Assembly (NCBI GenBank): GCA_016192985.1
Contig: JACPTC010000029.1
Location: 1 to 41,872, forward strand
Reading direction: 5' to 3'
DNA: 41,872 bases
From: Candidatus Woesearchaeota archaeon
Lineage (GTDB): Archaea; Nanobdellota; Nanobdellia; Woesearchaeales; GW2011-AR4
Both the position numbers and the translations under genes were made by a program. The notes below the pieces were generated by a model that saw only the letters and a list, made by a program, of their open reading frames with translations, did not search any database and was not told the DNA's origin. This document shows, in pieces, positions 5,405 through 31,198 of the stretch (its first letter is position 1; every line of letters starts with the position of its first letter).

Positions 5405-5411
5405 TTTGATT

Positions 5412-6630: not shown

Positions 6631-6647
6631 ATTGCGCAGGCCTGGAA

Positions 6648-6662: not shown

Positions 6663-6694
6663 AGCCTGTTTCCGAAAGGATATCTGGGTTCAAA

Positions 6695-6760
6695 AGCAAT
6701 ACTTAAATCTTAGGCATAGAGCTTCGCTTGTTGCCTGACTTAACAAGGTATTGCCGAAAG
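6695..6760 (+). other. tRNA intron 3 (T-loop, position 59/60), 66 nt
   Basis: The outer helix is the T-stem CTGGG/CCCAG. The central helix is TTCA (6689-6692) with CGAA (6755-6758), three pairs plus one A-C mismatch. The bulges are AAA (6693-6695) and AGT (6759-6761). The inner helix is 7 bp, GCAATAC (6696-6702) with GTATTGC (6748-6754). The intron interior can fold further (TTAGGCA with TGCCTGA). Confidence 0.8.
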
Positions 6761-6774
6761 TCCCAGTCCCGGCG

Positions 6775-6780
6775 TTTTTT
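6775..6780 (+). terminator. T-run terminator after the tRNA
   Basis: Six T residues directly follow the discriminator base, as expected for archaeal oligo-T termination. Confidence 0.55.
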
Positions 6781-6796
6781 ATTTCATCCTTTTAAA

Positions 6797-10095: not shown

Positions 10096-10105
10096 TATTT
10101 TATGC

Positions 10106-10137
10106 AAAAAATTTAACCCCCGAAGGTTAAATTTTTT
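10106..10137. terminator. Perfect 13-bp hairpin between the coiled-coil gene and the adhesin region
   Basis: AAAAAATTTAACC (10106-10118) pairs with GGTTAAATTTTTT (10125-10137) around a 6-nt loop. Each strand ends its stem in six T residues, so it could act in either direction; on the - strand it begins 11 bp before the coiled-coil start codon. A TATA-like AAATATTTAAATA (about 10144-10157) suggests the - strand transcript may start within the hairpin. It may be a leader structure, an operator or an insulator; the terminator label is tentative. Confidence 0.4.
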
Positions 10138-10433: not shown

Positions 10434-10478
10434 CCATCGTTTTGCCGTGGGCAGCGATTGTTAAAAAGAGGGGCGCAA

Positions 10479-13400
10479 TTGAGAGCAAATGTGGGTAATT
10501 TAGTATTGTTAGCTATATTCCTAGTGCTATTCACCACTCTTCATTTGCATGATTCTTCAGCTGTGATATCCATAAAAAACCCAAGCTATGTTGTTGGTCA
10601 GAATGTTTTAATTGATGTTAATGTAACTTCAATGGACAACCTTAGGCTGGAGGTTGCTTCTATTGATTCAACTTTTATCTATCTTGGAAAAGAGAGCCAG
10701 TTGACTTTTACCCCAAAAGTGCCGGAATTCTATTCGCTAAAGCTGATAAACACATCTTATGAATCAACAAAAGAAACCATTGATTTTGCTGTTATAACTC
10801 CAAAAGGCTCGGACATATTCACAGACAAGAAATCGTATCAGCTGGGAGAAACCGTTTTTATCTATGTAGGCTTGGAGCATTTGACATCCAATTATAACTT
10901 GTCTATAAGCACAGAGCGAGAGCTTTTCTACTTTCTAGGTGAAATTCAGAATCCTTTAAAGTTTGTGCCGCGAAGCACTGGAAATTACCAGATAAACCTT
11001 TATGGAAATGGCTCCATTGTGCAAAAGAATTTCAGTGTTGAGTCATTGGACCCATTTAAAGCAAAAAGAGCAGCTGTAAAAATTACCTCTCCAAAGAGAA
11101 CCTATGTGCTTGGCGACAAGGTTGAGCTCAGGCTCATATTTCCAAAAAATGAAAGCCTGCAGTTTTACATAACCTCAGGAAATAATGTATACAGGTATTT
11201 CGGAATTCCTGGTGATGTGCTTGTATTCGAGCCAAAGGAAAAGGGATACTACACGGCATTTATAGAGGAAGCAGGGATAACACTTGCTTCATATGCCTTT
11301 ACTGTGCTGCCCAAACTTATGCTCAACATAAGCACCATACTTGAAAATGTTGATTATTCCTTTTCTTTGTCTGAAAATGCAGTGATTCAGGTTGATTTCA
11401 TAAACTTATTGAAAGCCAACAGGAATATAGTTGAGATAGCTTTGAAATCATCAGTTTTGGAAAAAATCACAGCTTATATAGAAGGACATCACCTTGATTC
11501 TGATTTTGTTTTAAGTATAGAGCATGTAGAATACGATAAATTCAAGGTTACTATTCTTTCAAACAAAAACATACAAGAGGGAATTTACAGGCTTGCCGTT
11601 GTAGGAAGATACAACGATAAGGTCTACAAAAAAACTGCTCTTTTCAATTGGGGATTGACAGACGAGCAAGCTTTCTTCAGCGAAATTTCAATAAAAAAGG
11701 CTAAACTCAATAAAAGCATTGTCGTTGACAAATCAGATTACAAACTGGGGGAGCTTGTACAGATAAAGACTAATCTTTCCAATGCAGGAATACGCTTTGA
11801 TGGTCATATTTTCCCGCTTTCTTCAGAAAATGTGCCAGAACTTGTATTTGCGCCCCAAGCTACAGGTTTGTACACAATAGAGGCACGGGACGGCTTAGGC
11901 AATGCTGCGACTCAAGATTTCTATGTTTCTGATGTCGCAGCAGCTGAGCCGTTTTTTAACGAGAGTGAAATGCAGCTACAGGCAGAGATAGGAAAGCCCG
12001 TCAAATGGATGAAAACGCTCAAATTCAAGAATGCAGAGAGCATTGCAAGCACCATAACTTCAGCATTGCCATTTGAGTCAGATAACATAGCAATAACTTC
12101 AGGAGCATCTTCAATAAACAATTCTGTTGAGCTGTTGCAAAACAAGTCAATTGTTTATTTCAATGATAGCCTGCTCCCGTTCGAGGAGAAAGAATACTCA
12201 ATTGAATTCCAGACGCCGGCTCCATCAAAGAGCGAAAGTTTGGACATAACGCAAAAATCTGATGATAAAAGTGTAAAAATAACAAGCACAGCATCGGTGC
12301 ATTATTCAAATGTGTCTTCTTATGTTGATATTGCTGAATCAAAGCCTAAGCAAGTTAGAGTAATATTTGTTGTAAACGGAAGCGAAATTGATGTAACGAA
12401 AAACGCAGAATTCAACGTAACCCTTATAGACTCAAATAATAATGGTTTAGTAGATGAAGTAAGATGGGTTGTGCCAAATCTTTCTGAGCAATTGTTTAAA
12501 ATTAGAGTTATAAAAGCCGCTGACTTAAACTTGGATACAAAAGACTCAGGAAGCAGCACCAATAACGCGGATTACATCCTTTATTCAGACAATGTGTTGA
12601 TTAAGACTCAAGGCAACAAACTCCAGCAGCTGATAAATATTTCAAGGAAGAACGACATTGAAATAAGGCCAGTAAGCAAGAGCATCAGGAAAATAAGAAT
12701 TAATGATATTCAATTGGCGGGAGATGCAAACCTTTCTTTTGGCTTAGACGATGTCCCTGCAAGCAAAGACAAAGCAAAAAAATGGAAGAAAATTTTCGCA
12801 ATCGATCCAAAAAATATTGTGTTTTCTAATGGCTCTGTCACTGTTAATGCAACAGGAACTGAGCTTTACAAATGCAAAGACTGGAATTTTGCCGAGCAGA
12901 AGTGTTATGGAGAATGGCAAAAGATAATGGACATATTGCCGGGAACAGAGTACACTTTTGCAATGACAAAAGACGACCCCGGATATGCTGAGAGCGGATT
13001 GGCAAGTGTAAACACAAACAAATCTTTGTATCATCCAAATGAAGAGGTAAAAATAATGGTGGTGGTGCTTGACAAGGATGGCCATCTTGTAAGCGATGCA
13101 GACGTTGTTTTGAACATAACAAAACCCAATGGAACTTTTACAACTTTATTGACAAATGACAGCACAATAGTAGAGACGCAAAGAGGCATTTATACTGCCA
13201 AGTACCCAGACACAAGATTGGAAGGAAATTATACGCTATTTGTTAAAGCTACAGGCAACAACGTCAATAATACATTCTCCTCATTTTTCACAGTGAAGCA
13301 ATTTTATGAATTTGAAATTTTGAGAGATGCTCCATTGACAACCGACCCATGGAGAGGCCCGTTCACTTCTTCAATAAAAATCACCTCATTGACAGGCTCA

Positions 13401-16400
13401 ACAATATTTGATTTCAGCGAAGTGCTTCCAATAAATTTCACAGTGACAGATTATGGCGGCGCAACAGAGACAATTTCAGGTGACAAGGTAGTATTAACAT
13501 GGAACGGATTGAGCAACAATTCAGTTGTTTCATATTCAGCACGGGCGCCATTTATAACGCCTGAGCTTTGGGAGTTGGGAAATGCTTATGTAAAGTATGG
13601 CTCTCAAACTTTTACAGAGGCAAAACCATGGTTCTTGGCAGTTGATCCGGCTAACAGCGTTAACATCTCTACTCCAGATGCCGGCGCACCAGGCATGAAT
13701 CTTGTAGTGCAATTCATAGGCGATGATTTTGACTCAACAGACAATGTTACAGTAAACACAACCGACATTTTTATTGGTACAAAGACCATAACAGACCTTG
13801 CTGGCAACGTAGTCTCTGATAACGGAAGAGTCCTCACAACAGTCTTCTTCATCAACCCAAGTGCTGCTGCACAGGATGTCCAGATAAACATAAGCGGAGT
13901 TTCTTTGCCCCAGCCATTTAAGATTGTTGTGCCCACACGAGACAGCGGAAATTTTACTGGCTTGAGCGGCACTTTCACAATTGGCGATGGTAAAAACGGC
14001 ACAAGAACATCTGGCGGAACAATAGTGCTTGACAGCTTGATAATCCCTCAAGGAGTGACTGTCAATGTTTCAAGAAACGATCCTGATGGAATAAGCGGCA
14101 ATGGAAATCAAGGCTATTTGCCCGCAATGATTATTGTCGACGGCCCTGTCAACATTTCAGGAACGCTTGTTGTGAATGGCACAGATGGTTTGGCTTCTGA
14201 CGCTGGAGTAAATCCTGCAAATGGCGGCAATGCTGGGCCTGGCGGCGGCGGAGGCGGCGGAGGCGGTGTTCATGATCCTGGAGGTACTGCAGGCACAGGA
14301 GGAGACGGTTTTGCTGGAGGAGGAGGAGGATCTGCAAGGAGTGGCTCGGGCACTAGTGGCGGAACAGGAGGAACAGGCTCAGGCTCTACTGGAACAACAG
14401 GTTCAGGAGTTAATGGTGGTGAAGGAGGGCCTGCTCTTTCCGATGTAGACACAGATACTGGTGGCGGAGGAGGTGCAGGAGCATCAGACAGCGGTGCAGG
14501 CGGAGGAGGAGGAAGTGGTTATGCTTTTGGTTTAGGTGGTGGTGGTGGCGGAAGTTCAGGTGGAACAGCAGGCTATGGTGGCGGAGGAGGTGCAAGAAGC
14601 GGTGGAAATGGAGTTGGTGGTGGCGGTGGAGGTTTTGGAGAAGTAGGGACAACAGGCACAGGAGATGGCAGCGCAGGCGAGGGTGGACTTTTAACAGGAA
14701 ATTATACCTTAATTTCATTGATGGGAGGAAGTGGTGGCGGTGGCGGCAATTCTGATAGTGGCGGTGCGACTTCTAGGCGTGGAGGAGGAGGTGGAGGGGC
14801 AGGTGGAGCTGTTTTGATTTTTGCTACAGGAAATATTACTGTGACAGGCACTATAAATTCAAATGGAGGGAATGGTGGCTCTGGAGTTACATCTCAAGGC
14901 GGAGGAGGAGGAGGAGGAAGCGGAGGTGCAATCGTTCTTCAAAGTGCCAGGGTAAATACTTCTTCAAGCAACCTATTCGCTTTAGGTGGCTCAGGCGGCG
15001 CAGGCACTTCAAGCAGAAATGGAGGAGGAGGTGGAGATGGAAGGGTGAGGGTAGATGGTTTGAGAGAAGGCAATACCTCTGTTGAAGGGGTGCGGGGAGT
15101 ATATAATGGTTCCACATTTGTAGGGCCTTCTATCACAAATGTTAACTTTAGCCATGTCGCTGGAAGAGCAAATGTAAGTTCGACTGTTGAAGTTGTTATC
15201 CTTGACAAATCATCAAGAACTTCAAAATTTAATGCATCTGTTGATTCAAATGGCGACTTCATTGTTGAGGTTCAGCACTTCAGTGGATTGAATTATATAA
15301 CAGTAATACAAAATGTGAGCTCTGGCTTGTTTTCTGTCATGAGTTCAGCAGCTGCTGTAACATTCAATGCACCCATCCCTCCAAATGTAAGCAACTTGAC
15401 ATATCCTGCAAATGCATCTGTTATCAGCTATATACCAATACCTTTCAACTTTACAGTTCATGATAACCAGAATGTTACAAACTGCACTCTTTGGACAAAT
15501 TCAACAGGCACATGGAAATCAAACTCAACAATATTCCCAACTACAAACGAAAGCACCACTTGGAACATTACAGTGCCACAGCCTGATGGCATATTCATTT
15601 GGAATGTGCAATGCTATGACAACTCCACCCCTCAGCAGTTTGATTGGTTTGAGCATAATTATACAATAACCGTCGACTCGCAAGCACCTGTTGTAACATT
15701 AGATAGTCCTGCAAACAACAGCCTTGACACTGATCTTAATGTAAGCCTGAAATGCAGTGCCTCCGACCAGGTTGATGTTAGGAACATATCCATTTATACA
15801 AATTCAACAGGCACTTTTCTTGAGAACCAGTCTGCCATATTTTCAGGCTCAAGCGAAAATTCCGTGTCTTACATATTCAACATATCGTTAAGCAATGAAA
15901 ATGTTTTTGTGTGGAATTGTTTGGCTTTTGGAAACATAAACACCTCGGCTTTTGCAGCAAACAACTTTACAGTAAGGGCAAGGATACCAAGTGAAAGTTA
16001 CGTTGACATAACCCAATTGAGCAATGTTTCAAACAGGACAACAGGAAGAGGAACATGCATCGAGGACTACAATAAAAATGGATTGCTCGATATAATCCTG
16101 CTGGGAGACGACCAAGGCAGTATCAACTTGTTTAACAATACTGGCAATAACATTTTCAAAAATGACAGTGTTTCCTTAAATGCAGGTTATGGGGCAGCAG
16201 GCAGAGCCTGTTCATTTGGCGATTTCAATAATGACGGCTTCACAGATTTTGTCACATCAAGCGATTTGATTCTTTACAAGAACAATAAAAACCATACACT
16301 CAACTGCACGGACAGTGAAAATGACGCAGCATGCTCCGCTTCTGTTTTGCCTGTCACAGCCTTCACAGGCAAAGGCATACAGTTCTTTGACTATAACAAG

Positions 16401-19400
16401 GACAGCTACCTTGACATCTTTGCTCCGGATACAACTGGCGCTTACATCTTCAAAAATAACGGTGATGGAAACTTTTCTTTGGTAACTATTGGCTCTGATA
16501 CAATCGATGAGTACACCGCAGCTGCTGACTACGATGGGGATGATGACCTTGACTTGTTTGCTGTTGACAGCACAGCCCATATCATTTACAGAAACAACGG
16601 CGATGGCACATTTACAAAGACGGACGCCTCAACAATAGGATTGCCAAACAGGACAAGAGGCTCTGGAGAGGATGCTGAAGACTTCCAATGGGGGTTTGGT
16701 GATTATGATAACGATGGAGACTTGGACGTTTTTATAACTTCCACCAGCGCCACAGAGAGAAACTTCTTTGAGAATGATGGCGATGGGACATTTACTGAGA
16801 AAACAATAACAGCCAACCTTCCAACTGATGACGTAGGCACAAATCCTGTTTGGGGTGATTATAACAACGATGGCTATCTTGATTTGCTTGTGGGAGGCAA
16901 AGGCATATTCAAAAACAATAAGGATGGTACATTTAGCGAGGTAACTTCCAATTTGAGCATAACTAAAGTTCCCGATTCCGTACAATTTGCCGACATAGAC
17001 AATGACGGCGACTTGGATATAGCGGGGCAAAATAAAAGCGGCATAGTTTTGATTTATCGAAATGATATCAATGACGCAAACTATTTGAAAATTTTAGTCA
17101 GAGGTTTGGGCAATAAGACATATCATAATTTCACGAATGCAGATGCCATAGGAGCAAAAGTCAGAATTTACAATTCCAGCAGCAGCTTGGTTTGTTTCAG
17201 GGAGATAAGCGCAGGCTCTTCTTATGGGCAAGCTCCAAAAATACAGCATTGCGGATTGAAGTCAGCATTTACATACAATGTAAGCGTAGAATTTCCTTCA
17301 GGCTTGTCAACAAATGCCACAGTAGTTCCATCATCTGCAACCTTGGGCATAGGAGAGACAACCCTTATTCAAACAATTGAGGTTAATGAAAGCGAGGCTG
17401 CTCCAGCAACAATTTTGGTGTTGCCTGCAGCAAGCGATGTGGATTTGGATGGCTTGGACATAACTTTCGTTTGCAATGCAACCGATGACATAGACTTAGC
17501 CAACGTAAGCCTTTACATAAATGACACAGGCATTTTCAAATTGAACCAAACCAAAGTTTTTGATACAAACAGTGACTTGGCAAATTCTTCAAATTTCACT
17601 ATCAACCTTACATCAGGATTGTTTGGATGGAACTGCCTGACTTATGACTCGGCTGGAAATTCAAGATTTGCTAATTTGAACAGGACAATTAGCACAGGCA
17701 CGGACACCTTGAATGTCGATGTTTATGCGGATAGCACAATATACGGAACAAATGAAGTGGCCAGAATAACTGTGAACACCACCAACAGCCAAGCCGGACC
17801 GCTTAATGCCACAACAGCAACAGACATAGTTTTTGGTTCAACAACAACTCCGTGGTGGAACAGTTCTTTCACTTTTAGAAAACCTATATTTTTGCAGCAT
17901 ACATCAAATCACTCAAACATAACGGTGCAAATAAACGTGACAGGTCTAGGAGGCAACATTATTAGTTGCGTTAACGACACCAGAATAGTCAAAAACTATT
18001 CTACAAGCAATTTTTTAATAAACAGCACAATCTTCAGTGGAGACAATTCTACTTATTGCACCATAAGATTTAATGCGGAGATTGACACAAACAATGCAAG
18101 CAATTACCATGTTTATTACAAAAACAATACTGGCTCAAACCCTGGTTTTACCATCAGCCCAAGCCTCTTAGTTAAAACGGTGCAGAAAGGTACAGCCTCA
18201 TTACCCAGCACAGACACATCAATTGCTGTCAATATTACTGAAATCAATACATCAGCCTCTTTGCTGGTTTTCAATTTGAATGAGAACAATGCAGATCCTG
18301 CAAGCGGCCTCATAAGAGGGAACATATCCAACAGCACAACTTTGAGATTTATAAGATCGGGCTCCGGCAATTCTGTTGCAATTCAATGGTATGTCGTTGA
18401 ATTTGAATCTGGCGTAAATGTGCAAAGAGGAACGGCAACTGTTACAGCAACACCTCATGATATTACAATAAGTTCTGTCAACATCAACAAGTCATTCCCT
18501 GTAATTTCATGGAGCAATGGAGGTGCGCGCTATGGCAGCGATGATTTTGCAAGAGCAAATCTGACAAGTCCCACCAATTTAAGGGTCACAAGCGGCGCTG
18601 CATCAATAGACAACTTGGAATGGCAGGTCATTGAGTTCACAAGAGATGTTAGAGTACAAAAAGGCGATGTTAATTTCGCTTCTGGCGATTCAGTAGTTTA
18701 TTCTGGCATAAGTCCAGTAGATATAAATAAATCATTCCTCATAGCCACTTGGACTGCTTCAGGGAATGACATAGACTCGAATATGATAATGGCAGCATTT
18801 GTCAATGCAAGCAACCTTTCCTTTGAAAGAGAAACCACAGGAACTACAATAGGTCTGACATACTATGTTGTTGAATTCAACACATCAATAGTCCAAAGCT
18901 CTACAGTGAATTTTACGGGAACTAACACTTTAAAAAATATAGTAATAAACTCCGTGGACACTTCAAGAAGCATAGCCTTCCTTTCAGGGAGCCAAATGGC
19001 CGGTGGCTCTTCTGACTTTACAGCGGATGACAACATAGGAACGGGCTTTTACACTGCAAATGTAACAAGCGCTACAAATCTAGAATTAAGGAGAGGCACA
19101 GACACAGAAAGCGCTGTTTCAAATGCAACCTATTTTGTAGTGGAGTTTTATAGCGTGAATTCTGTAAAAAGCTCATTGGGAGACGAGCAGAAATTTTTGA
19201 TTAAAAACCTCAATGACACTGAATCTGACGGGATACATTCTATAAATTTCAGCACCCTTGACCAAACTGTTGGACTTTACTCTGTTGTTAGTGTGGCTAC
19301 TAAAACAAGTTATAGTGATGTAAAAGACTTTACCTTCTTCAACATAACTTCTGGTGGGGAAGTACCTGTGGTTACTGTTACATTCCCCGCAAGCGGCTCA

Positions 19401-22400: not shown

Positions 22401-23495
22401 ATCAACTGCACTGATGATTCGTTCCAGAGAAACTCAAATGGCTCGGAAATCAGAAACTTTACAGTAAATAAGCTTCTTGATATGAAAGTTGAAGTGACAA
22501 CAGATAAGTACTTTTATGAAAAAGGCACGCAGCTAAATGACTCAGCTTTTGTGACTACAACAACAAGGGACAGCCTAAATAGCTTGATTAATGCAACCGT
22601 CACAAGCGATGTAATAAGAGGCAATACAACGCTGAGCTGGTGGAATGCATCGTGGTCGATGAGAAAGCCCATTTTTATCAATGAAACAAGCACTGCTGGC
22701 AGAATAGAGATACCAGTTAGCGTCAATGTTACAGGATTAAATGGAAACATCAGCAACTGCAACAATGAAATCAGGATTGTTTACAATAAATCCCAGATAC
22801 ATGCAGTTGTTCCGAGAAAAATACTGAGCGGCGATGATTCAACGTACTGCTTCATAATGTTTTTGGCAAACACCACTTCCAATTCTGTCAATGACAACAA
22901 CTACCATGTTTATTACAATAACACCAATGCATCACCCCCAGAAGATTTTAACTTCACAGTGCAGGAATATGTTAATGCAACTTTTACTGAAAGCGCTGAA
23001 GGCTTTGTTTATGGAGATGATTTCTATGGAGGGACAAGCAATGCCGCTGAAGAAGACGGGGTGAGGGAGCAAAGCACAAGCTGCCCAGGCCCATCTGCAT
23101 CAAATTTCTGTTTGAATGTGAGCCTTAACACAGTACCAGACACAAGCGGTCCGTGGAGCGGCGGCTGGAATATGACATTTAACATAACTGAGCCAAATGT
23201 TCTTGTTAATATAACCTTTAACTTTAGCCTGATTTTGACAAGATTTACGGAAGTAGGGGAATCTATAAATCTGAGTTATAGAAATTTGACTAGCGGTGCA
23301 GTTGTAACCGCAGCAGTCATTCAGGGAGATGTAGGAAATCCTGCCCCTCTCAATGATTATGTGAATGGAACACTTAATTACACAGTTCTTTTGACAAATT
23401 CTGGACAATACTCCTTCGATGTTGGATGTGTCTTAACCACTGTTGATAGCACAAATGAGGTAGGGGCGTGCTATATCGACAATGAAATGAGGTAG
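10479..23495 (+). CDS. Giant multidomain surface adhesin, N-terminal fragment (4338 aa), truncated by a frameshift
   Basis: A signal peptide (NLVLLAIFLVLF, cleavage near DSSA) is followed by four ~75-aa Ig/MG2-like repeats (10.57-11.94 kb; pattern K-x-x-Y-x-LG-x-x-V, then F-x-P-x-x-x-G-x-Y). Next are an MG2-like domain near 13.0 kb, a glycine-rich beta-helix-like region (14.2-15.06 kb), Ig-like domains and VCBS/FG-GAP repeats (16.0-17.06 kb; FGDYDNDGDLDVFI) with an ASPIC/UnbV-like domain (17.07-17.38 kb). Then come DUF2341-like domains near 17.85 and 22.64 kb, four VVEF repeats (18.15-19.15 kb) and Cys-paired Ig-like repeats (21.58-22.47 kb). N-x-S/T sequons are extremely dense. TTG 10479 is chosen for its GAGGGG site; TTG 10458 is the alternative. 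The premature TAG comes from a 32-bp duplication; without it the frame continues to 31198. Adhesion or host contact is inferred. Confidence 0.9.
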   Translation: MRANVGNLVLLAIFLVLFTTLHLHDSSAVISIKNPSYVVGQNVLIDVNVTSMDNLRLEVASIDSTFIYLGKESQLTFTPKVPEFYSLKLINTSYESTKETIDFAVITPKGSDIFTDKKSYQLGETVFIYVGLEHLTSNYNLSISTERELFYFLGEIQNPLKFVPRSTGNYQINLYGNGSIVQKNFSVESLDPFKAKRAAVKITSPKRTYVLGDKVELRLIFPKNESLQFYITSGNNVYRYFGIPGDVLVFEPKEKGYYTAFIEEAGITLASYAFTVLPKLMLNISTILENVDYSFSLSENAVIQVDFINLLKANRNIVEIALKSSVLEKITAYIEGHHLDSDFVLSIEHVEYDKFKVTILSNKNIQEGIYRLAVVGRYNDKVYKKTALFNWGLTDEQAFFSEISIKKAKLNKSIVVDKSDYKLGELVQIKTNLSNAGIRFDGHIFPLSSENVPELVFAPQATGLYTIEARDGLGNAATQDFYVSDVAAAEPFFNESEMQLQAEIGKPVKWMKTLKFKNAESIASTITSALPFESDNIAITSGASSINNSVELLQNKSIVYFNDSLLPFEEKEYSIEFQTPAPSKSESLDITQKSDDKSVKITSTASVHYSNVSSYVDIAESKPKQVRVIFVVNGSEIDVTKNAEFNVTLIDSNNNGLVDEVRWVVPNLSEQLFKIRVIKAADLNLDTKDSGSSTNNADYILYSDNVLIKTQGNKLQQLINISRKNDIEIRPVSKSIRKIRINDIQLAGDANLSFGLDDVPASKDKAKKWKKIFAIDPKNIVFSNGSVTVNATGTELYKCKDWNFAEQKCYGEWQKIMDILPGTEYTFAMTKDDPGYAESGLASVNTNKSLYHPNEEVKIMVVVLDKDGHLVSDADVVLNITKPNGTFTTLLTNDSTIVETQRGIYTAKYPDTRLEGNYTLFVKATGNNVNNTFSSFFTVKQFYEFEILRDAPLTTDPWRGPFTSSIKITSLTGSTIFDFSEVLPINFTVTDYGGATETISGDKVVLTWNGLSNNSVVSYSARAPFITPELWELGNAYVKYGSQTFTEAKPWFLAVDPANSVNISTPDAGAPGMNLVVQFIGDDFDSTDNVTVNTTDIFIGTKTITDLAGNVVSDNGRVLTTVFFINPSAAAQDVQINISGVSLPQPFKIVVPTRDSGNFTGLSGTFTIGDGKNGTRTSGGTIVLDSLIIPQGVTVNVSRNDPDGISGNGNQGYLPAMIIVDGPVNISGTLVVNGTDGLASDAGVNPANGGNAGPGGGGGGGGGVHDPGGTAGTGGDGFAGGGGGSARSGSGTSGGTGGTGSGSTGTTGSGVNGGEGGPALSDVDTDTGGGGGAGASDSGAGGGGGSGYAFGLGGGGGGSSGGTAGYGGGGGARSGGNGVGGGGGGFGEVGTTGTGDGSAGEGGLLTGNYTLISLMGGSGGGGGNSDSGGATSRRGGGGGGAGGAVLIFATGNITVTGTINSNGGNGGSGVTSQGGGGGGGSGGAIVLQSARVNTSSSNLFALGGSGGAGTSSRNGGGGGDGRVRVDGLREGNTSVEGVRGVYNGSTFVGPSITNVNFSHVAGRANVSSTVEVVILDKSSRTSKFNASVDSNGDFIVEVQHFSGLNYITVIQNVSSGLFSVMSSAAAVTFNAPIPPNVSNLTYPANASVISYIPIPFNFTVHDNQNVTNCTLWTNSTGTWKSNSTIFPTTNESTTWNITVPQPDGIFIWNVQCYDNSTPQQFDWFEHNYTITVDSQAPVVTLDSPANNSLDTDLNVSLKCSASDQVDVRNISIYTNSTGTFLENQSAIFSGSSENSVSYIFNISLSNENVFVWNCLAFGNINTSAFAANNFTVRARIPSESYVDITQLSNVSNRTTGRGTCIEDYNKNGLLDIILLGDDQGSINLFNNTGNNIFKNDSVSLNAGYGAAGRACSFGDFNNDGFTDFVTSSDLILYKNNKNHTLNCTDSENDAACSASVLPVTAFTGKGIQFFDYNKDSYLDIFAPDTTGAYIFKNNGDGNFSLVTIGSDTIDEYTAAADYDGDDDLDLFAVDSTAHIIYRNNGDGTFTKTDASTIGLPNRTRGSGEDAEDFQWGFGDYDNDGDLDVFITSTSATERNFFENDGDGTFTEKTITANLPTDDVGTNPVWGDYNNDGYLDLLVGGKGIFKNNKDGTFSEVTSNLSITKVPDSVQFADIDNDGDLDIAGQNKSGIVLIYRNDINDANYLKILVRGLGNKTYHNFTNADAIGAKVRIYNSSSSLVCFREISAGSSYGQAPKIQHCGLKSAFTYNVSVEFPSGLSTNATVVPSSATLGIGETTLIQTIEVNESEAAPATILVLPAASDVDLDGLDITFVCNATDDIDLANVSLYINDTGIFKLNQTKVFDTNSDLANSSNFTINLTSGLFGWNCLTYDSAGNSRFANLNRTISTGTDTLNVDVYADSTIYGTNEVARITVNTTNSQAGPLNATTATDIVFGSTTTPWWNSSFTFRKPIFLQHTSNHSNITVQINVTGLGGNIISCVNDTRIVKNYSTSNFLINSTIFSGDNSTYCTIRFNAEIDTNNASNYHVYYKNNTGSNPGFTISPSLLVKTVQKGTASLPSTDTSIAVNITEINTSASLLVFNLNENNADPASGLIRGNISNSTTLRFIRSGSGNSVAIQWYVVEFESGVNVQRGTATVTATPHDITISSVNINKSFPVISWSNGGARYGSDDFARANLTSPTNLRVTSGAASIDNLEWQVIEFTRDVRVQKGDVNFASGDSVVYSGISPVDINKSFLIATWTASGNDIDSNMIMAAFVNASNLSFERETTGTTIGLTYYVVEFNTSIVQSSTVNFTGTNTLKNIVINSVDTSRSIAFLSGSQMAGGSSDFTADDNIGTGFYTANVTSATNLELRRGTDTESAVSNATYFVVEFYSVNSVKSSLGDEQKFLIKNLNDTESDGIHSINFSTLDQTVGLYSVVSVATKTSYSDVKDFTFFNITSGGEVPVVTVTFPASGSTTSNAQIDLNATTSKSATCKYSTNQLFDYDTQGTLFTTTGSTIHSTNLGALSEGSYTYYIKCRDSIGNTNDNNNQGSTTFTVDRTPPSITLNRPSNNSNQTSATITFSWTATDNIDTSIACNLTVNGVVEASDVQSQSGTQRDFAIALSNGNYTWNVTCADNAPNINFSVTNSFRLNVVDLIVSIQTVNTSYKQNRIVNLSRVRVEESSDLEASIQTTSFPINTHIYVANDTAEKAYYVETGCNAGTVPPSDGPDPTCGGAHVEFTGTEYNSASVSDDNSVSLSCGANDEDYLLFNLSIDEDLNSINSINWSFEGALSATAGTTLKFFMWNYTSSSWFNCTGNLQSTTDTFINCIYSTNVTDFINSTTKYTTFLAQCQETSGNARTITNDFTQFVVNYYTNKTDGNSSFINYTFGDSSNRTKLSDINIKINVIVYNNSVSSTRGNNAADLQVQFYNGTNYTYFENCNLNSLGMSGSNISVNCSVTVTNKTILAAWANSTNRKFRISGINLDQARELQDSINWTDVFIRLHTPSEIENVGPENFTRRLLLQVFRNTTDGFVSYEVVYNDTVTIPSNTSRNISDFWDTKGFNTANSPLGSYMVYAALIASDNSVVLNGDDQPLNDTYVFTIDYLRLNITSPQNNSVQDAAGFFINVSLENITFTSGGNCSYSIDGQPNVTMTNSSSISFFNFTSTVAVGDHQIVVFCNDSSGEYSSSNTHNFSVQDQTSPLVGLVFPFNNSEVPTGDVGFIYNVTDFTSNITNCTLILDFQDNITNITVAKNVNQTFNVSGLPNGQHRWQVRCTDNSSNKNIGLSDEFVFLVGVDSSPPVVSLTSPANNTFTQNNDVIFKYTAFDEPVAANILNCTLILNNQANQTNTTIFTGAGQVNNFTLNDMPVRDYNWSVNCTDSSPSRNVGSSKTFNISIGQDTDFPTINLVSPLNNITDTDGVVAFSFNVSDISGGISNCTIIINGTINQTDTTIQENAEQSFSISGFNDGIYNWQINCTDDSFQRNSNGSEIRNFTVNKLLDMKVEVTTDKYFYEKGTQLNDSAFVTTTTRDSLNSLINATVTSDVIRGNTTLSWWNASWSMRKPIFINETSTAGRIEIPVSVNVTGLNGNISNCNNEIRIVYNKSQIHAVVPRKILSGDDSTYCFIMFLANTTSNSVNDNNYHVYYNNTNASPPEDFNFTVQEYVNATFTESAEGFVYGDDFYGGTSNAAEEDGVREQSTSCPGPSASNFCLNVSLNTVPDTSGPWSGGWNMTFNITEPNVLVNITFNFSLILTRFTEVGESINLSYRNLTSGAVVTAAVIQGDVGNPAPLNDYVNGTLNYTVLLTNSGQYSFDVGCVLTTVDSTNEVGACYIDNEMR
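14218..15060 (+). other. Glycine-rich beta-helix-like region within the adhesin
   Basis: About 280 residues with runs of up to nine glycines and GGGGGSGG motifs, interleaved with strand-like segments such as GGAVLIFATGNITVTG and GGAIVLQSARVNTSS. Flanking segments (TIVLDSLIIPQGVTVNVS; GPVNISGTLVVNG) look like coils of a right-handed beta-helix. G-rich codons raise local GC well above the rest of the gene. Confidence 0.8.
16000..17380 (+). other. VCBS/FG-GAP repeats followed by an ASPIC/UnbV-like domain
   Basis: At least six calcium-loop repeats of the form D-x-(N/D)-x-D-G-x-x-D, for example FGDFNNDGFTDFV, WGDYNNDGYLDLLVGG and FADIDNDGDLDIAG, suggest a beta-propeller. The following ~100 residues (YLKILVRGLGNK, DAIGAKVRIYN, REISAGSSYG, VEFPSGL) match the ASPIC/UnbV pattern that often follows such repeats. 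Confidence 0.8.
18146..19150 (+). repeat. Four ~80-residue VVEF protein repeats
   Basis: Four consecutive copies end in WYVVEF, WQVIEF, YYVVEF and YFVVEF; most begin with a VQ-(R/K/S)-G-like motif and contain an I-x-x-V-(D/N)-x-x-(K/R)-S core. They are protein-level repeats with diverged DNA. Confidence 0.75.
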
Positions 23496-23516
23496 GGGCG
23501 TGCTATATCGACAATG
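23453..23516 (+). repeat. Exact 32-bp tandem duplication that splits the giant adhesin ORF
   Basis: Bases 23453-23484 are repeated exactly at 23485-23516. Because 32 is not a multiple of 3, the second copy shifts the frame and creates the TAG at 23493-23495. Reading only one copy gives ...VGACYIDN-VRIFVNG..., joining the two long ORFs without a break. Confidence 0.97.
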
Positions 23517-26500
23517 TGAGAATATTTGTTAATGGCTCTGCATCTGGAGTCAGGGCATCTGTCGGTCAAGTGCAAGAGCTCAGAAAAAGAGAGATTAATG
23601 ATACAACCTCAGATGGCACATTTGAGCATATTTTCAATTCAACCAACCACTCAATTGGAGTTTACAGCATTGTATCAGTTGCTAAAAACTCCTTGTACAA
23701 TACCAATTTTAACCATACTGTTTTTGAAATAATCAAAGATGCAACACCCCCATCAGTTAATCTGGTTTCGCCTGGCGACTCTTTTGCAAGCGCATTGAAC
23801 AACCTCACTTTTGTTTATAATGTTAGTGATATTCATTCAAACATCAGCAGTTGTCAACTTATAGTTGATGGGGTAATTGTCCAGACAAACAGCACAATCA
23901 CGGAAAACGCACTGCAAAATTTCACACGAACAGAGATAAGCAACGGCGCACATACATGGCAGATTAATTGCACTGACGGCTTAGGAAACAAAAACGGCTC
24001 ATTGATAAGAAGCTTTGATGTCCAAGTCGATACTTTAGGGCCTTCAATAACGCTTGAAGCACCAGCAAATAATTCAAATGACACGAACGGCCAGCTCGTT
24101 TTTGATTATGTTGTTGTAGATCAGTTTAACGGCATTGCAAACTGCACGCTAATAATAAACGGCACTGATAACCAAAGCATGTTTAATGTCAGCGAATCAG
24201 TCACGAGAACATTCTACTCAAACATCACTGACGGGGTTTACAACTGGAGCGTAAGATGCTTTGACAATTCTTCAAACTTTAATGTAAACACTTCTCTTAT
24301 AAGAAGATTCAATGTTATTGTAGATACATCCCCTCCCATAATCAATCAATCGTTTCCGCTGAATAATTCCCAATTGGTATCTGGAAATATAACTTTCATC
24401 TATAATGTGACCGATTCAATCTCCAACATATCAAATTGCTCAATATTTATTGATGGCGTGCTTAACATCACAAACAAGACAGTGTCAGAGGGAATCAATC
24501 AGGTATTTAATGTAACGGGAATTGGAAACGGCTATCACAATTGGAGCGTGCTGTGCGTGGATGGCTCAGAAAACAATAATTCAGCAATGTCTGCGAATCT
24601 CACATTCTTAATATCTCCAGATAATGAAGGGCCAATTGTAACATTAATCAATCCACCGAATGCCACGGAAGATCCTGATGGCAACATCACACTTACATAT
24701 AATGTTACTGACACAGCTTCTAACATAAAGAACTGCACTTTGTTCATAAACCATACAAGAAACTTGTCAACACTTGATGTACCCGAAGGCCAACAACAGT
24801 CTTTTGACCTGTTCAATGTGCCTGACGGCGTTTATATCTGGCAGGTCAATTGCACAGATACTGCGCTGATAGAGAATACAGGCAATTCGTCAATAAGGTT
24901 CTTTATCATAGGCGCTGACTTAACTCCGCCGACTGTAACTCTAGAAAATCCTGCCAATAATTCTAATGACTCTGACGGCAGGATAGGCTTTAACTATAAT
25001 GTTGTTGATTTTGGCAGCAATATAAAAAATTGTTCCGTTTTAATAAATAATACAATAAACCAGACAAATACTTCTGTTGCGGAATCAGCGACGCAGACCT
25101 TCACAATAAGCAGCTTCAATAACGGCACATTCAGCTGGAAAGTTTCCTGCACTGACAATTCATCACAGCAAAATACAGCAAATTCGTCTTTTAGGCTGCT
25201 TAAAGTTATAAATGATGTTGAAAAACCCACGATTAATTCGATTTTGCCTGCAGATGGGGCGTCAGACAGCGACGGAAATGTTTTATTCTTGTACAATGTA
25301 AGCGACGAGCTGAATGGGATTTCAAGCTGCAGATTATACATAGATAATTCGCTCCAGCAGGAAAATACCTCAGTTACCCAGAATACAAACCAGAGTTTCA
25401 GAGTCAATGGATTGGGAGACGGAACCTACCAATGGTTTGTCAATTGCACTGACAACAGCGATAACCAAAATATTGGCAAATCAGCTGCAAGAACGTTAAC
25501 GGTACAAAACGATGTCACAGGACCCACAGTTACATTGCTCAATCCTCCAGAGCATACTCTTGAAACAAATGGAAGCAGGGAATTCTTTTATAACGTCACA
25601 GATGCAGTTAGTGGCATTGCGTCTTGTGAGATAATCTTTAGTGGAGTTATACAAGATACTGATACTAGTGTATCAAAAGGAATATCTCAAAATTTCTCAC
25701 TGGCAGGCTTAACTGACGGGCAAAAAAATTGGAGCGTTAACTGCACAGATAATTCTGACAATTCAAATGAGGGAGCTTCCTCAATAAGAAACCTTACGGT
25801 GATTTTAGACAGCTCTGCCCCTGTTGTAAATCTTGTAAGCCCGCAAAACAACACGCAAAGCGTTGTCAATAATGTCACTTTTATATTTAATGTCAGTGAC
25901 GCCAATGGAGTGTCTAACTGCAGCATCCAAATAAACGGCACTTTAAATTCCACAATCTATAACGTGTCGAGAGACGTTAATGTCAATTTTACAATCAGCA
26001 ATTTCAGCAATGTAACTATAAATTGGAATATTGACTGTTACGATATATCAGAAGACCGCTTTAGAGGCATATCAGAAAACAGAACACTCATTATAGGAGC
26101 TGATGCTCTCGGACCAACTATAACCTTGCTGAGCCCACCAAACAATATACAAGATCCAGACGGCAATGTCCTATTTGACTACAATGTTACTGATTTTGCC
26201 TCAAATATTTTGAATTGCAGCCTGATAATCAATGGAACAATCAATCAAACCAATACATCTATACAGGAGAGTGTCAAGCAGAATTTTACGATTAACGATA
26301 TGCCGACCGGCATTTATACTTGGAGCGTTAATTGTACGGACAACTCAACCAGCCTTAATACAGGAGCTTCGGAAATTAGAAACCTCACCATAGGCAGAGA
26401 CACTACGCCCCCAACAGTTACTTTGATAAGCCCGTCTAACAATACAGCGTATAATGCTGAATTTGTTGTTTATGAATATTCTGTTTCAGATTTTGCATCA

Positions 26501-29500
26501 GATATCAAAAACTGCACGCTGGTCATTAACAATGACCTAAATGTTACAAATACAACAGTTTCCGAAGATGTTTCTCAATTTTTAAGGATAGTTAGGCAAG
26601 AAGATGGCCATTACAATTGGAGCGTAAATTGTACAGATACATTCAATAATACAGGAGCTTCAGCATACTTCAACATTTCAATCTTTGCCCCTAAACAAAT
26701 ACTTGTTAATGTATCAACCAACAGTTTTTCCTATGAGCAGGGAAATACAGCAACAATCTCAGTCAACACGACAAATGGCTCAAATTACGCACTTGCTGCT
26801 AATTTGACTGTGGATATAATCAGAGGAAATGCAACTGCGCCTTGGTGGAATACCTCTTATCATTTTAGAATTCCATATATAATAAATGCGTCCAGCAGAG
26901 CGAGAACAGACAAGCTTATTGAAGCTTCTATAAACTTTACAGATGTTTTAGTTAATGAGTTAAGCTTAAGCGGTTTGGCATTTGACAATAGCTCCGTGAG
27001 AGTTGTTGAATTCGACAGCAACACTTCGATAGAAATTCCCTCTCAGTTTGAAGCTGGTGAGCCGTTCAACAGCATCAACAGCAGTTACGGCACTTTATAT
27101 TGGGTGCTCAACTCAACTACTGCTGAAAATGAGGTTAGGGAATACTACATTTATTTTGACATTATAGAGAACGGGCAAAAATCTGCCCCAAGCTATAGCA
27201 AACCGACATTTTCCTTCAGAGGTGATACAAAAAATGTGCTGTTTGACAACACTCTTACAAGCGCCAGCCATGTCATAATTAATAATTCAAACAACACTTT
27301 TACAATGCTCTTCTCAGATGGTGATGGAATTTTCAACCAGCTATATAGCGACTATCAGGGCGCAGGAAGCATATTAAACATAACAATGAACGGCAATCGC
27401 ATTACAAATGACAACTCCAGCATAGTCCCTTTTGCCATAAAAGATGATGATTACATGATAACCAACAGCACTGTTACTTTTGAGTCTGGCTATGTTGTTT
27501 CATTTATCAATATCAATTCAACAATAAATTCTGTAAGTGATTCTTCAGCACAAATTAATTACACAATATGGTTTGCAAAAAATGATATTTATATCAGAGC
27601 AAAATTGTACGCTACTTTCGGCACCGCCGAATCAGCGCCAATAGACCTGTACAGCAATCTGTGGTTTGCTTATCTTATTGATGAGGGAAGCTCGTCATGG
27701 AATTCTTTTATTAATACATTGAACTCCAGAGGGTATAATGACACGCATGACTACAATACTGTTTCTGCAAATCTTAGCGAGTTAAATGCATTTCGTCCAA
27801 GCGACTGGCTCTCAGAACTCAAATCAGGCTTAGGCGGCATAAATCTTTATGTTCAAAACTTCTCGCTCAATAATGCCAATACCACAATAGGAATAGTCTC
27901 ATTTGATGATGCAAAGCTTCCTGCCGGCACGCAATCAGATGGAGTTGGATTTAACCTTAATTCCGACCAAACGATAGCTGCAGGCGACATCTACTCAATT
28001 ACAGCATGGATGAGGTTTTCAAGTGATGGCGCTTCAAAAGGCGAGGACATTGAGCTTGACATAGAAACACCGCTTGTGACAACAAGACAGCAAGGACAGC
28101 GCTTTATCAACAGGACAATAAACCAGTCGGATTCAAATGGAATGTTCATCATGAATTTCAGCACTGCCGGAATTTCAACGGGGTTCTATTCAGCTGTTGC
28201 TAGGGCATTCAAGGATTTGTACTTAAGTGGAGTAAATTTCAAGATATTTGAGATGACAACTGACATAACCAAACCGGTTGTTGCAGCTTTAAGCCCTGAA
28301 GGATTCAACAGCACAGTTAATTCAACATTCACCTACAATGTTTCGGAAGGCAATTCGCTCAGAAACTGCACTTTAATACTAAACAATAATCTAAACGTAA
28401 CAAACTTGTCTCCGATAAACAATGCGCAGAATGCTATAATTGTTTATAACATTGCCGAAGGCTCTTATAACTGGAGCGTAAACTGTACAGACAATGCAGG
28501 GAACACAGGAGGAAGCAATGTCAAGAATGTAACAATAGATTACACAATACCCAGCGTGATTCTAAATTACCCAAATGCATCCCAGATTTTCCAGACAACA
28601 ACAATAGAATTTAATTTTACAGCCATAGATAATCTTGACACAAATCTTACTTGCAACCTTACTATTGGAGGCGTAGTCAACAGAAGCAATCTTGCATCAC
28701 TGAATGATACAATCACAAATGTTACAGTCACAAACTTCAATGAGGGAATTTATTATTGGAATGTGAGCTGCATTGATGATGCTTTCAACAAAAATATATC
28801 GCTGACAAGAAACTTCACTATCAGCCTCGGAAATCCGAAATTCTTCCCTGAGAATACCCAAACAGCCATCAACAACAGCAATCCGAGAAGAAACAATGTA
28901 CTCCAGATATCTACAAATGCAACAGACGAGTCGGGCTTGAATCTTATCCTTTTCTCATGGAATTCTACAGGCATCGGCACATGGATAAACGTGTCTAATG
29001 CAACTCTAAGCGCTGATAAGTCCGTTAATTACACTGTAAATGTAACAGTAACCGCTATTGCTAACACCGTTGTTGGATACATCTTCCATGCAAGAGACAT
29101 TGCAGGCAACTTCAACACAACTGCCTTGAGAACTTATACTGTTGTCAATTCTCCCCCATCATCACCTACAATATTATTTCCGTCCAATGGCTCGAAATAC
29201 AACAAGCAACCTCTTGACATAAACATCACATTCACTGTTGATGCCGATGATGACGCAATAACCATCTATTATTACATAAATGGCGCATTTAACCAAACAT
29301 CATCAACAAACACAACCCTTAATGCAAGCGACGGCACTTACATATTAAATGTAAGCCTATCTGATGGAACTGATTTCAGCTCTAATATTACCATAAACTT
29401 TACTATAGATACAGTAAAGCCAAGAATAAACGCATCTCTAAACAATTCTTCACCGAGAAGATTTGATGTTGTAAACATGACAGCCAACGTGACTGATGAA

Positions 29501-31198
29501 ATAGAACTCTCATTTTGCCAGTTTATCCTAAACCAGTCAGCAAATGGCGCGAAAGAATTCTTTAACAAAACAGTTAATGGTAAAAATGACCAATGCTCGC
29601 AGAATTTCACCATAAATCTGACAAGAGGCAATGTGATTAACTTTACAGTTATTGTTAATGACACTGCAGACAACTTGAATCAGAGCCAGCAAATAATTAC
29701 AGTGGCTAATTCCCCTCCATCTGCGCCTGCAATATTGTTTCCGACTATCGGTTTGAATACAAGCCTGCAGCCTCTAAGCTTAAATGTCACTTTCGCTGGA
29801 GATTCGGACAATGACGCGATTACCATAAGATATTATATAAACGGCACATTAAACCAAACATCGCTCACAAACACAACCCTTAATGCAAGCGACGGCACTT
29901 ACATATTGAATGTAAGCCTTACTGACGGCATAGAATCGTCAGCCAACACAACTGTCAACTTTACAATAGACACAATAAACCCAACAACAACGCAAGTTTA
30001 TCCGCCTAGCGATTATTACAATGACACTTCTGACCCATATTCGATATTATTCAACTGCTCCGCAACAGACAATATTGCATTGAAAAACATAAGCTTGTAC
30101 ATATCTAACAGGCTTAACCAAAGCTTCAGCTTTAATGTGTCGGCAGATTTGGACAGCAATTCCGGTTATGGAAACTGGACATTAAGCTTGCAGAGCGGCA
30201 ACTACACATGGAATTGTCTTGCATTTGACAGGGCTGGAAATTATGATTGGGCTGATAATAGAAGCCTCCTCATTAATACAAGTCTACTAGATTTGAAAAT
30301 AGCCACAGCTGATATAACTTTCAACAGCACAAGTCCGGTTGAAGACGACAATATAACAGTTAATGCAACTGTCTTTAACATCGGTTCTATAACCGCAACC
30401 AATGTGCTTGTAAGATTTTTTGATGGCGACCCGGGCAATGGCGGAAATCAGATAGACACCGATAAGACAATAAGCTCTTTGGCTTCTCTGCAAAATAAAA
30501 CTGTAAATGCAACCTTTAGAATATCACTTGGCTTGCATCAAATATTTGTCTTGGTTGATCCGCTCTCAGCAATAGTAGAGGCTAATGAAAGCAACAATAA
30601 TGCAAGCGGCAACATTTCAGTCCCGATATGGCACTTTGCAACAGGAAATGTAACAGGCAACTTGCTGTTGCGAAGCATAGGCAATAGGACAATATTCAGC
30701 TGGGACATCACTGCAGCGACTACTGGAAATTTGTTTGTTGTTGATTCAGATAGCAGCATAACATGGACAAACCTCACCGCATTGGGAAGAAACATCACAG
30801 GACAGAATGCAAGCAATGACTGGGAGGAGCTTGATAGGGCGCTGAACACTTCTAATTCTTCAAAGTATCTGGATTCAATAAACAGGACATTCACCTCAAA
30901 TTATGTTCCAATCAATACAACATCCTTCATAGTTTTTGCCAGAACAATCTACAATGTTTCAATAGCCAACAGCACAAACAGCTCAAATTTTGTGACTGGC
31001 ATTTTGTGGGACCAAAGCGATGACACAGGAGACGGGCAGTACAACGGAAGCGAAGACGTTGCTTTCATAACAGAAATCGAAAGAAACCTTACAGGAAAGT
31101 ACGGGGTTTATGATTTTGAGCTTAGAATCCCTTCAACACTGAAGAGACTCAAAGGACCTGAATTAAGCTCTGTTACATTTTATGTGGAGTTGAGATGA
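23516..31198 (+). CDS. Giant surface adhesin, C-terminal fragment (2560 aa)
   Basis: This is the continuation of the 10479 gene after the 32-bp duplication; the GTG at 23516 is only the first possible start and there is no signal peptide. Ten consecutive ~97-aa Ig-like repeats (23.74-26.68 kb) follow the pattern D-x-x-x-P-x-(V/I)-x-L-x-x-P-x-N, Y-N-V-(S/T)-D, (N/S)-C-x-L-x-I and W-x-V-N-C-T-D, with two cysteines each. Then come a DUF2341-like domain (WWNTSYHFRIPY, 26.84 kb), further Ig-like domains, two near-duplicate NSPPSxPxIL repeats (29.15 and 29.71 kb), a CARDB domain (30.29-30.63 kb) and a ~190-aa C-terminal module ending SSVTFYVELR. That module also ends the next protein. If the frame is restored, the whole protein has about 6,895 residues. 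Confidence 0.9.
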   Translation: MRIFVNGSASGVRASVGQVQELRKREINDTTSDGTFEHIFNSTNHSIGVYSIVSVAKNSLYNTNFNHTVFEIIKDATPPSVNLVSPGDSFASALNNLTFVYNVSDIHSNISSCQLIVDGVIVQTNSTITENALQNFTRTEISNGAHTWQINCTDGLGNKNGSLIRSFDVQVDTLGPSITLEAPANNSNDTNGQLVFDYVVVDQFNGIANCTLIINGTDNQSMFNVSESVTRTFYSNITDGVYNWSVRCFDNSSNFNVNTSLIRRFNVIVDTSPPIINQSFPLNNSQLVSGNITFIYNVTDSISNISNCSIFIDGVLNITNKTVSEGINQVFNVTGIGNGYHNWSVLCVDGSENNNSAMSANLTFLISPDNEGPIVTLINPPNATEDPDGNITLTYNVTDTASNIKNCTLFINHTRNLSTLDVPEGQQQSFDLFNVPDGVYIWQVNCTDTALIENTGNSSIRFFIIGADLTPPTVTLENPANNSNDSDGRIGFNYNVVDFGSNIKNCSVLINNTINQTNTSVAESATQTFTISSFNNGTFSWKVSCTDNSSQQNTANSSFRLLKVINDVEKPTINSILPADGASDSDGNVLFLYNVSDELNGISSCRLYIDNSLQQENTSVTQNTNQSFRVNGLGDGTYQWFVNCTDNSDNQNIGKSAARTLTVQNDVTGPTVTLLNPPEHTLETNGSREFFYNVTDAVSGIASCEIIFSGVIQDTDTSVSKGISQNFSLAGLTDGQKNWSVNCTDNSDNSNEGASSIRNLTVILDSSAPVVNLVSPQNNTQSVVNNVTFIFNVSDANGVSNCSIQINGTLNSTIYNVSRDVNVNFTISNFSNVTINWNIDCYDISEDRFRGISENRTLIIGADALGPTITLLSPPNNIQDPDGNVLFDYNVTDFASNILNCSLIINGTINQTNTSIQESVKQNFTINDMPTGIYTWSVNCTDNSTSLNTGASEIRNLTIGRDTTPPTVTLISPSNNTAYNAEFVVYEYSVSDFASDIKNCTLVINNDLNVTNTTVSEDVSQFLRIVRQEDGHYNWSVNCTDTFNNTGASAYFNISIFAPKQILVNVSTNSFSYEQGNTATISVNTTNGSNYALAANLTVDIIRGNATAPWWNTSYHFRIPYIINASSRARTDKLIEASINFTDVLVNELSLSGLAFDNSSVRVVEFDSNTSIEIPSQFEAGEPFNSINSSYGTLYWVLNSTTAENEVREYYIYFDIIENGQKSAPSYSKPTFSFRGDTKNVLFDNTLTSASHVIINNSNNTFTMLFSDGDGIFNQLYSDYQGAGSILNITMNGNRITNDNSSIVPFAIKDDDYMITNSTVTFESGYVVSFININSTINSVSDSSAQINYTIWFAKNDIYIRAKLYATFGTAESAPIDLYSNLWFAYLIDEGSSSWNSFINTLNSRGYNDTHDYNTVSANLSELNAFRPSDWLSELKSGLGGINLYVQNFSLNNANTTIGIVSFDDAKLPAGTQSDGVGFNLNSDQTIAAGDIYSITAWMRFSSDGASKGEDIELDIETPLVTTRQQGQRFINRTINQSDSNGMFIMNFSTAGISTGFYSAVARAFKDLYLSGVNFKIFEMTTDITKPVVAALSPEGFNSTVNSTFTYNVSEGNSLRNCTLILNNNLNVTNLSPINNAQNAIIVYNIAEGSYNWSVNCTDNAGNTGGSNVKNVTIDYTIPSVILNYPNASQIFQTTTIEFNFTAIDNLDTNLTCNLTIGGVVNRSNLASLNDTITNVTVTNFNEGIYYWNVSCIDDAFNKNISLTRNFTISLGNPKFFPENTQTAINNSNPRRNNVLQISTNATDESGLNLILFSWNSTGIGTWINVSNATLSADKSVNYTVNVTVTAIANTVVGYIFHARDIAGNFNTTALRTYTVVNSPPSSPTILFPSNGSKYNKQPLDINITFTVDADDDAITIYYYINGAFNQTSSTNTTLNASDGTYILNVSLSDGTDFSSNITINFTIDTVKPRINASLNNSSPRRFDVVNMTANVTDEIELSFCQFILNQSANGAKEFFNKTVNGKNDQCSQNFTINLTRGNVINFTVIVNDTADNLNQSQQIITVANSPPSAPAILFPTIGLNTSLQPLSLNVTFAGDSDNDAITIRYYINGTLNQTSLTNTTLNASDGTYILNVSLTDGIESSANTTVNFTIDTINPTTTQVYPPSDYYNDTSDPYSILFNCSATDNIALKNISLYISNRLNQSFSFNVSADLDSNSGYGNWTLSLQSGNYTWNCLAFDRAGNYDWADNRSLLINTSLLDLKIATADITFNSTSPVEDDNITVNATVFNIGSITATNVLVRFFDGDPGNGGNQIDTDKTISSLASLQNKTVNATFRISLGLHQIFVLVDPLSAIVEANESNNNASGNISVPIWHFATGNVTGNLLLRSIGNRTIFSWDITAATTGNLFVVDSDSSITWTNLTALGRNITGQNASNDWEELDRALNTSNSSKYLDSINRTFTSNYVPINTTSFIVFARTIYNVSIANSTNSSNFVTGILWDQSDDTGDGQYNGSEDVAFITEIERNLTGKYGVYDFELRIPSTLKRLKGPELSSVTFYVELR

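Follow-up and report, generated by a model that had tools for sequence, protein, structure and literature searches.

A giant archaeal surface protein ending in a C-terminal module shared with small secreted proteins and HerA-type ATPase membrane proteins

The closest described counterparts of the protein studied here are the SPEAREs of Nanohaloarchaeota, secreted giants of 5,998 to 9,409 aa with multiple Ig-like domains, whose system includes a VirB4/HerA-type ATPase; host binding has been proposed for them, and one was found by proteomics to be made (PMC6642349, PMC10266531). The 9,409 aa are the largest size reported in cultivated archaea (PMC10266531). In bacteria, fibrillar and giant Ig-repeat adhesins are known (PMC8286594), as is a 7,651-aa adhesin of Mobiluncus (PMC10619420), while TasA and the archaeal thread filaments are made of small secreted beta-rich subunits, with donor-strand assembly in archaea (PMC9674648, PMC9715654). 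A description of the module system presented below was not found in the literature, within a search whose coverage of subscription papers and preprints was thin.

The window, i.e., the whole stretch of 41,872 nucleotides that was analysed, is the entire contig C8 of an archaeal MAG labelled Candidatus Woesearchaeota archaeon (1.26 Mb, 65 contigs, 77% complete). Most of it is taken up by a giant surface protein and the genes downstream of it. Directly upstream and divergent lies a gene for a 642-aa coiled-coil protein with no convincing family (8179-10107, minus strand), and further upstream one for a secreted protein with cupredoxin/plastocyanin, TIG, and CopC domains (5412-6473, minus strand); a plasmid search gave no match. 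Like the SPEAREs, the giant displays a very large extracytoplasmic region with a signal segment. However, SPEAREs carry a TM segment and the ATPase on the same polypeptide, whereas here the ATPase is located on a separate protein that shares a module with the giant, and domain scans and hydropathy of the giant, together with AlphaFold2 (AF2) modelling of its C-terminus, revealed neither a TM segment near its end nor an ATPase match. Since it fails this same-chain feature, we do not regard it as a SPEARE, though by analogy the present system may function along similar lines. SPEARE-like frames were also observed in another genome of the order (G057): an uninterrupted one of 15,809 aa ending in a DUF87 ATPase (G057:C41:15376-62805, L202-L205) and a second one, left open by the contig end, of 11,928 aa or more, with an ATPase region of the HerA/VirB4 type at its C-terminus (G057:C93:9226-45009, L206-L208). 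Both are longer than the largest size reported in cultivated archaea, and neither was matched by our module profiles.

As deposited, the giant is represented by two large open reading frames on the same strand with a 32-bp tandem duplication between them. The following features were identified.

10458-23495, plus strand: ORF A, N-terminal part of the giant (4,345 aa), starting with TTG at 10458 or 10479
10479-10562, plus strand: signal-peptide-like hydrophobic segment LRANVGNLVLLAIFLVLFTTLHLHDSSA (sequence, hydropathy)
13011-13271, plus strand: MG2 domain (Pfam PF01835, E 2.1e-8, 34.8 bits against a cut-off of 32.8)
14220-14669, plus strand: glycine-rich region, 53% Gly over 150 residues (composition; no Pfam match)
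16701-16892, plus strand: FG-GAP_3 repeat, best of five stretches (Pfam PF13517, E 7e-29)
17145-17342, plus strand: UnbV_ASPIC domain after the FG-GAP repeats (Pfam PF07593, E 3.1e-5, above cut-off, segment scanned alone)
21684-22418, plus strand: first three C..C Ig-like stalk repeats, before the duplication (motif count)
23453-23516, plus strand: perfect, frame-shifting 32-bp tandem duplication, probable assembly artefact (copies 23453-23484 and 23485-23516)
23516-31198, plus strand: ORF B, C-terminal 2,560 aa of the same giant, without a signal peptide of its own
23852-26641, plus strand: main series of C..C Ig-like repeats, of which nine fit the strict motif (motif; Pfam Big_7, Big_13, Big_3_3)
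30287-30631, plus strand: CARDB domain (Pfam E 1.7e-10, segment scanned alone; AF2 fold match)
30629-31195, plus strand: C-terminal module, ending ..TFYVELR at the stop codon (alignments A1/A4; AF2 pLDDT 93)

When one copy of the repeat is counted, a stop-free frame of 6,902 codons from TTG 10458, or 6,895 from TTG 10479, results, with the peptide ..VDSTNEVGACYIDN|VRIFVNGSASG.. at the junction. The latter figure reproduces exactly the single frame from 10479 to 31198 of the original prediction, and open frames of such length are not due to chance. Relatives in which the two halves are separate genes, each with its own signal peptide, were looked for, and no split case was found. Three relatives align over the junction in single stop-free frames, namely G048:C1 (query 4-424, frame of 4,959 aa), G088:C2 (query 6-424, 4,005 aa), and G070:C12 (query 22-411, 2,090 aa). 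The giant of G048, about 6,500 aa in size, is collinear with most of the present one (residues 35-490, 3357-4182, and 4414-6113, and 5889-6902 on a second contig); because both contig ends share the peptide ETNPEIVL, it is broken only by the contig end. That 23516-31198 is a real second gene expressed alone from GTG 23516 is how the deposited frames read, yet this start falls inside a domain that VRIFVNGSASG continues, no signal peptide or domain boundary is found there, and both sides of the junction stay in one frame in relatives, so that we consider two genes highly improbable. Judged from sequence, 10458-31198 constitutes one predicted gene, continuous in relatives. Some 28 bases ahead of TTG 10458 lies a TATA-like stretch, at a distance that would be compatible with a leaderless start.

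In regard to the duplication itself, the two copies are exact and extend by no base on either side. Our census of tandem duplications, covering 0.906 of the 1.265 Mb of the genome, revealed 14 exact ones, eight of them with a unit not divisible by three, and in six of these eight the broken frames were joined when one copy was counted. Among the loci of relatives (0.886 Mb), only two of eight exact tandem duplications had a non-triplet unit. An out-of-frame exact 32-bp tandem duplication was also detected near small module genes in one relative, a genome of the same family (G028, L066:15666). Since the gene is unbroken in relatives and the assembly holds other exact duplications that break reading frames, an assembly error is most likely, and the most economical, cause. 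The duplication might instead be real in the population, by slippage or as a phase switch, in which case the giant would be off in some cells, truncated without its C-terminal module. Slippage can create perfect tandem duplications, two small paralogous genes nearby are interrupted as well, and the genome holds further exact tandem duplications. However, a long, unique unit without internal repetition is not what phase-variation tracts typically look like, and the frame-breaking duplications are spread over unrelated genes, which indicates a genome-wide assembly cause; we therefore think a real duplication unlikely.

Most of the architecture that had been proposed for the giant was recovered. 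This applies to the N-terminal hydrophobic signal segment, the glycine-rich region, the FG-GAP plus ASPIC/UnbV-like part, in which the five FG-GAP_3 stretches possibly form a beta-propeller head, the VVEF repeats (three motifs), the CARDB domain, on which sequence profile and fold agree, and the terminal VEL(T/R) module, which proved to be a real family. Other elements held in part. Ig-like repeats are present, but MG2 occurs in only one copy above cut-off and is thus not a repeat. Three domains described as DUF2341-like are indeed homologous to each other (47% and 31% identity), yet no Pfam match to DUF2341 was obtained in scans of the whole ORFs or of two of the three segments alone, and we refer to them as 'WWN' domains. 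Instead of at least 15 disulfide-paired Ig-like repeats, 14 were counted by strict motif; one more C..C repeat than in the runs listed above lies at about 28367. The AF2 model of the last 300 residues reached a pLDDT of 93, and its residues 1-112 matched CARDB structure 3idu (Z 14.3, rmsd 1.6 over 101 residues). Domain scans of the giant detected no enzymatic domain. It is a secreted protein, probably heavily N-glycosylated, as it contains 412 N-x-S/T sequons, whereas shuffled sequences average 161. No C-terminal membrane anchor was detected, there being neither a hydrophobic helix nor a basic tail at its end. By rough estimate, a chain of some 70 Ig-sized domains might reach a length of a few hundred nanometres. 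Based on the domain content, the label 'adhesin' appears reasonable, and the giant may serve in host attachment.

To rank it 'among the largest archaeal proteins' is fair, though the same family has longer members. Intact giants with the same C-terminus comprise 6,797, 5,520, 4,553, 4,311, 4,003, and 8,788 aa in relatives, and the genomes of the order contain further open frames, with 7,579 and 7,165 aa. Because related genes reach 8,788 aa, the size of the present giant is not exceptional. A second class of giant ORFs, represented by G028:C59:453-10496 (3,347 aa) and G048:C98:731-16531 (5,266 aa) (L048, L053), displays a different shared C-terminus (..W.H[DE]PNT..) that is unmatched by the module.

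The original prediction of one giant secreted surface protein stands; what it missed is the link, via the C-terminal module, to small secreted proteins and to a membrane protein with an ATPase. The last approximately 200 residues of the giant constitute one family (alignment A1, extended as A4), for which no described family was found by sequence searches against Pfam, NCBIfam, and PDB, neither with the module nor with the small proteins. Scanning 84,980 species genomes with the narrower profile A2, limited to one peptide pattern, resulted in 65 loci, nearly all labelled Woesearchaeota, Pacearchaeota, Nanoarchaeota, Micrarchaeota, Diapherotrites, Altiarchaeota, or ANME-2/Methanosarcinales. In all 64 host ORFs out of 64, giant and mid-size, the module ended no more than two residues from the stop codon. 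It was present in 82 of the 287 genomes of the order and in none of the 19 genomes of the same genus that were searched, so that its distribution is patchy. With the model of the small protein, Foldseek and VIA-align yielded no clear structural counterpart (best Z 2.1); the fold search with the C-terminus of the giant matched only the CARDB part, which is no proof of a new fold for the module.

Downstream of the giant, the window harbors the following genes.

31195-33567, plus strand: mid-size secreted protein, 790 aa, overlapping the stop of the giant by 4 bp and carrying the same C-terminal module (32968-33561)
33734-35005, plus strand: cytosolic DUF5752-containing protein, conserved in the cluster, family in 23 loci
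36642-37431, plus strand: gene for a small module protein, broken where an exact 141-bp repeat ends
37897-38654, plus strand: gene for a small module protein, broken at the corresponding point, again where the exact 141-bp repeat ends
38873-39721, plus strand: intact small module protein, 282 aa
39718-40743, plus strand: member of a secreted protein family of about 330-340 aa occurring with small module genes, 25 loci
41241-41870, plus strand: small module protein, cut by the contig end, about 86% identical to 38873-39721

The small module proteins are secreted, about 250 aa in size, and consist of a signal peptide, an N-terminal extension, and the module, with little more. Comparison of the giant's module with the small protein by hhalign gave a probability of 99.3 (E 9e-21). 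In 48 loci, 4 kb or more of downstream sequence was available, and 24 of these have a small module gene there on the same strand. A further family of the cluster, of about 577 aa, displays a signal segment, a C-terminal TM segment, and a basic tail (12 loci); its representative in the genome of the window (C56:4405-6108) adjoins a small module gene (C56:7053-7820). The two interrupted small genes have the exact 141-bp repeat in common, and a small gene of the relative G028 is split as well (C73:13608-14397). Either near-identical tandem copies were collapsed in the assembly or these are real pseudogenes.

Searches with the small-protein profile also matched the N-terminal ectodomain of membrane proteins, referred to here as anchors, which in DPANN genomes are organized in the order TM segment, module, CarboxypepD_reg repeats, TM segment, and DUF87/HerA ATPase. 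The anchor in the genome of the window (G000:C11:2420-6991, 1,523 aa) follows this order with six CarboxypepD_reg repeats, TM segments near residues 9 and 1016, and a Walker A motif near residue 1102; its gene lies on a different contig from the giant. Anchor and small protein matched each other with an hhalign probability of 99.7 (E 4e-25). Among 288 genomes, giant or mid-size modules were found in 76, anchors in 75, and both in 56, i.e., anchors occurred in 56 of the 76 giant-bearing genomes versus 19 of the 212 others (Fisher p 2e-26, without phylogenetic correction); counted by family, the figures were 30 of 41 versus 3 of 45. Giant and anchor lie within 50 kb on one contig in 21 genomes. 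Conversely, 20 of the 76 giant-bearing genomes revealed no module-anchor and 19 anchor-bearing genomes no giant, and incomplete MAGs explain only some of these unpaired cases. Elsewhere in the genome of the window (G000:C43:1912-10202, L172), a gene for a 1,373-aa secreted protein is followed by one for a second HerA/DUF87-type ATPase (781 aa) and by three KaiC/RecA-like ATPase genes.

Loci with the module system were also observed in ANME-2/Methanosarcinales (L120, L123-L128, L130). Compact clusters, found there (L120, L125, L127, L130) and in Altiarchaeota (L129), combine in varying order a protein with the C-terminal module, a small protein, a TM protein of about 580 aa, and a module-TM protein. 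Since related clusters occur in ANME-2/Methanosarcinales, the system is not confined to DPANN symbionts, and one may ask whether it was transferred between DPANN and methane-oxidising archaea.

Altogether, homology, fixed C-terminal position, gene linkage, and co-occurrence tie the predicted module of the giants to the small proteins and the anchor ectodomain. We give a slightly better than even chance to the reading as a whole, in which one giant gene encodes a protein mounted, via its C-terminal module, on an assembly that consists of small subunits and a membrane/ATPase base. Accounting for the giant's attachment, its last approximately 200 residues, the module, would hold it on the cell. 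The small module proteins would build a filament or layer, with the module-TM-ATPase protein as its base, and giants and mid-size proteins would be terminal pieces whose domain-rich N-terminal parts point outward and bind other cells or surfaces. Joining could be donor-strand-like, with the strand given by small proteins and anchors and the giants acting as non-donating tips. In small proteins and anchors, the module core is preceded by a conserved GGxIxxLxI segment, which is unpaired in the monomer model of the small protein (pLDDT 82.7), while in giants the terminal CARDB strand runs straight into the module core and occupies this position. On the small-protein profile, alignments start at 59-75 for most DPANN giants versus 45-53 for anchors, with exceptions at 51 (G042:C13), 44 (L113), and 32-57 (ANME giants). 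A regular expression of a single pattern for the N-terminal strand motif hit 37 of 52 small proteins and, through the CARDB strand, 12 of 47 giants; because it is too crude, alignment and profile positions were used instead. Motif position and monomer model are only suggestive of donor-strand joining.

All of the homology evidence would be shared by an arrangement in which the module docks into an S-layer-like coat, the small proteins forming the lattice and the giants being inserted by their C-terminal module. Several small paralogs per genome, glycosylation sequons, and the lack of TM anchors would suit such a coat, but the HerA-type ATPase on the anchor suggests energised assembly over a passive coat, without being decisive, and we regard this arrangement as possible, if rather improbable. 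The extreme C-terminal position of the module in giants and mid-size proteins at 64 of 64 loci would also be expected of a tag for sorting or secretion that can be cleaved off, comparable to those of the type IX and PGF-CTERM systems. Against a tag speaks that the small proteins hold little else than the module, that the module also occurs on the N-terminal side of TM anchors, and that neither a hydrophobic helix nor a basic tail is found at the C-terminus; this makes it very unlikely in our view.

Returning to a subunit structure with an ATPase base as the preferred reading, some likenesses to known systems are apparent. Fibrillar adhesins are typically anchored by LPXTG, TM, or transport signals. 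With the bacterial ones the giant shares a long Ig-like stalk, adhesive domains, and intradomain cross-links, here putative disulfides, whereas its anchoring would be by a homologous subunit-like module. In chaperone-usher pili (FimH/FimA), the tip protein has a C-terminal subunit-like domain and lacks the extra N-terminal segment of the subunits. The present system, known from sequence, would be a work-alike at most, and neither an usher nor a chaperone was found for it. The small proteins resemble the subunits of TasA and archaeal threads in being small, secreted, and beta-rich; no match to subunits of TasA, threads, or chaperone-usher pili was found in sequence (Pfam, PDB), nor a clear one in fold (Foldseek/VIA), and they may nonetheless be related. 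A more far-reaching version would see an undescribed archaeal surface machine of small subunits, a HerA-type ATPase base, and giant terminal adhesins, built on one module without a described family and polymerising through strands that subunits and base donate to module-only tips, common to Woesearchaeota/Pacearchaeota-type DPANN, Altiarchaeota, and ANME-2, with SPEARE as a fused relative. We offer it tentatively, as a proposal that would sooner fail than hold in all its parts.

To our knowledge, how DPANN archaea hold on to their partners is mostly unexplained outside a few cultured cases. What is new here is the module system, whose physical form we infer, and not the size of the giant, which by itself is usual within its family. 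The module provides a searchable list of parts, i.e., terminal adhesins, likely subunits, and an energised base, for over a quarter of the sampled genomes of the order, and it links DPANN to the ANME-2 consortia, in which contact between cells is likewise important. In addition, the module offers a possible explanation of how proteins of 5,000-9,000 aa stay on the cell while lacking a membrane anchor, and suggests a common means, not described before, by which archaeal cells may carry very long adhesins.
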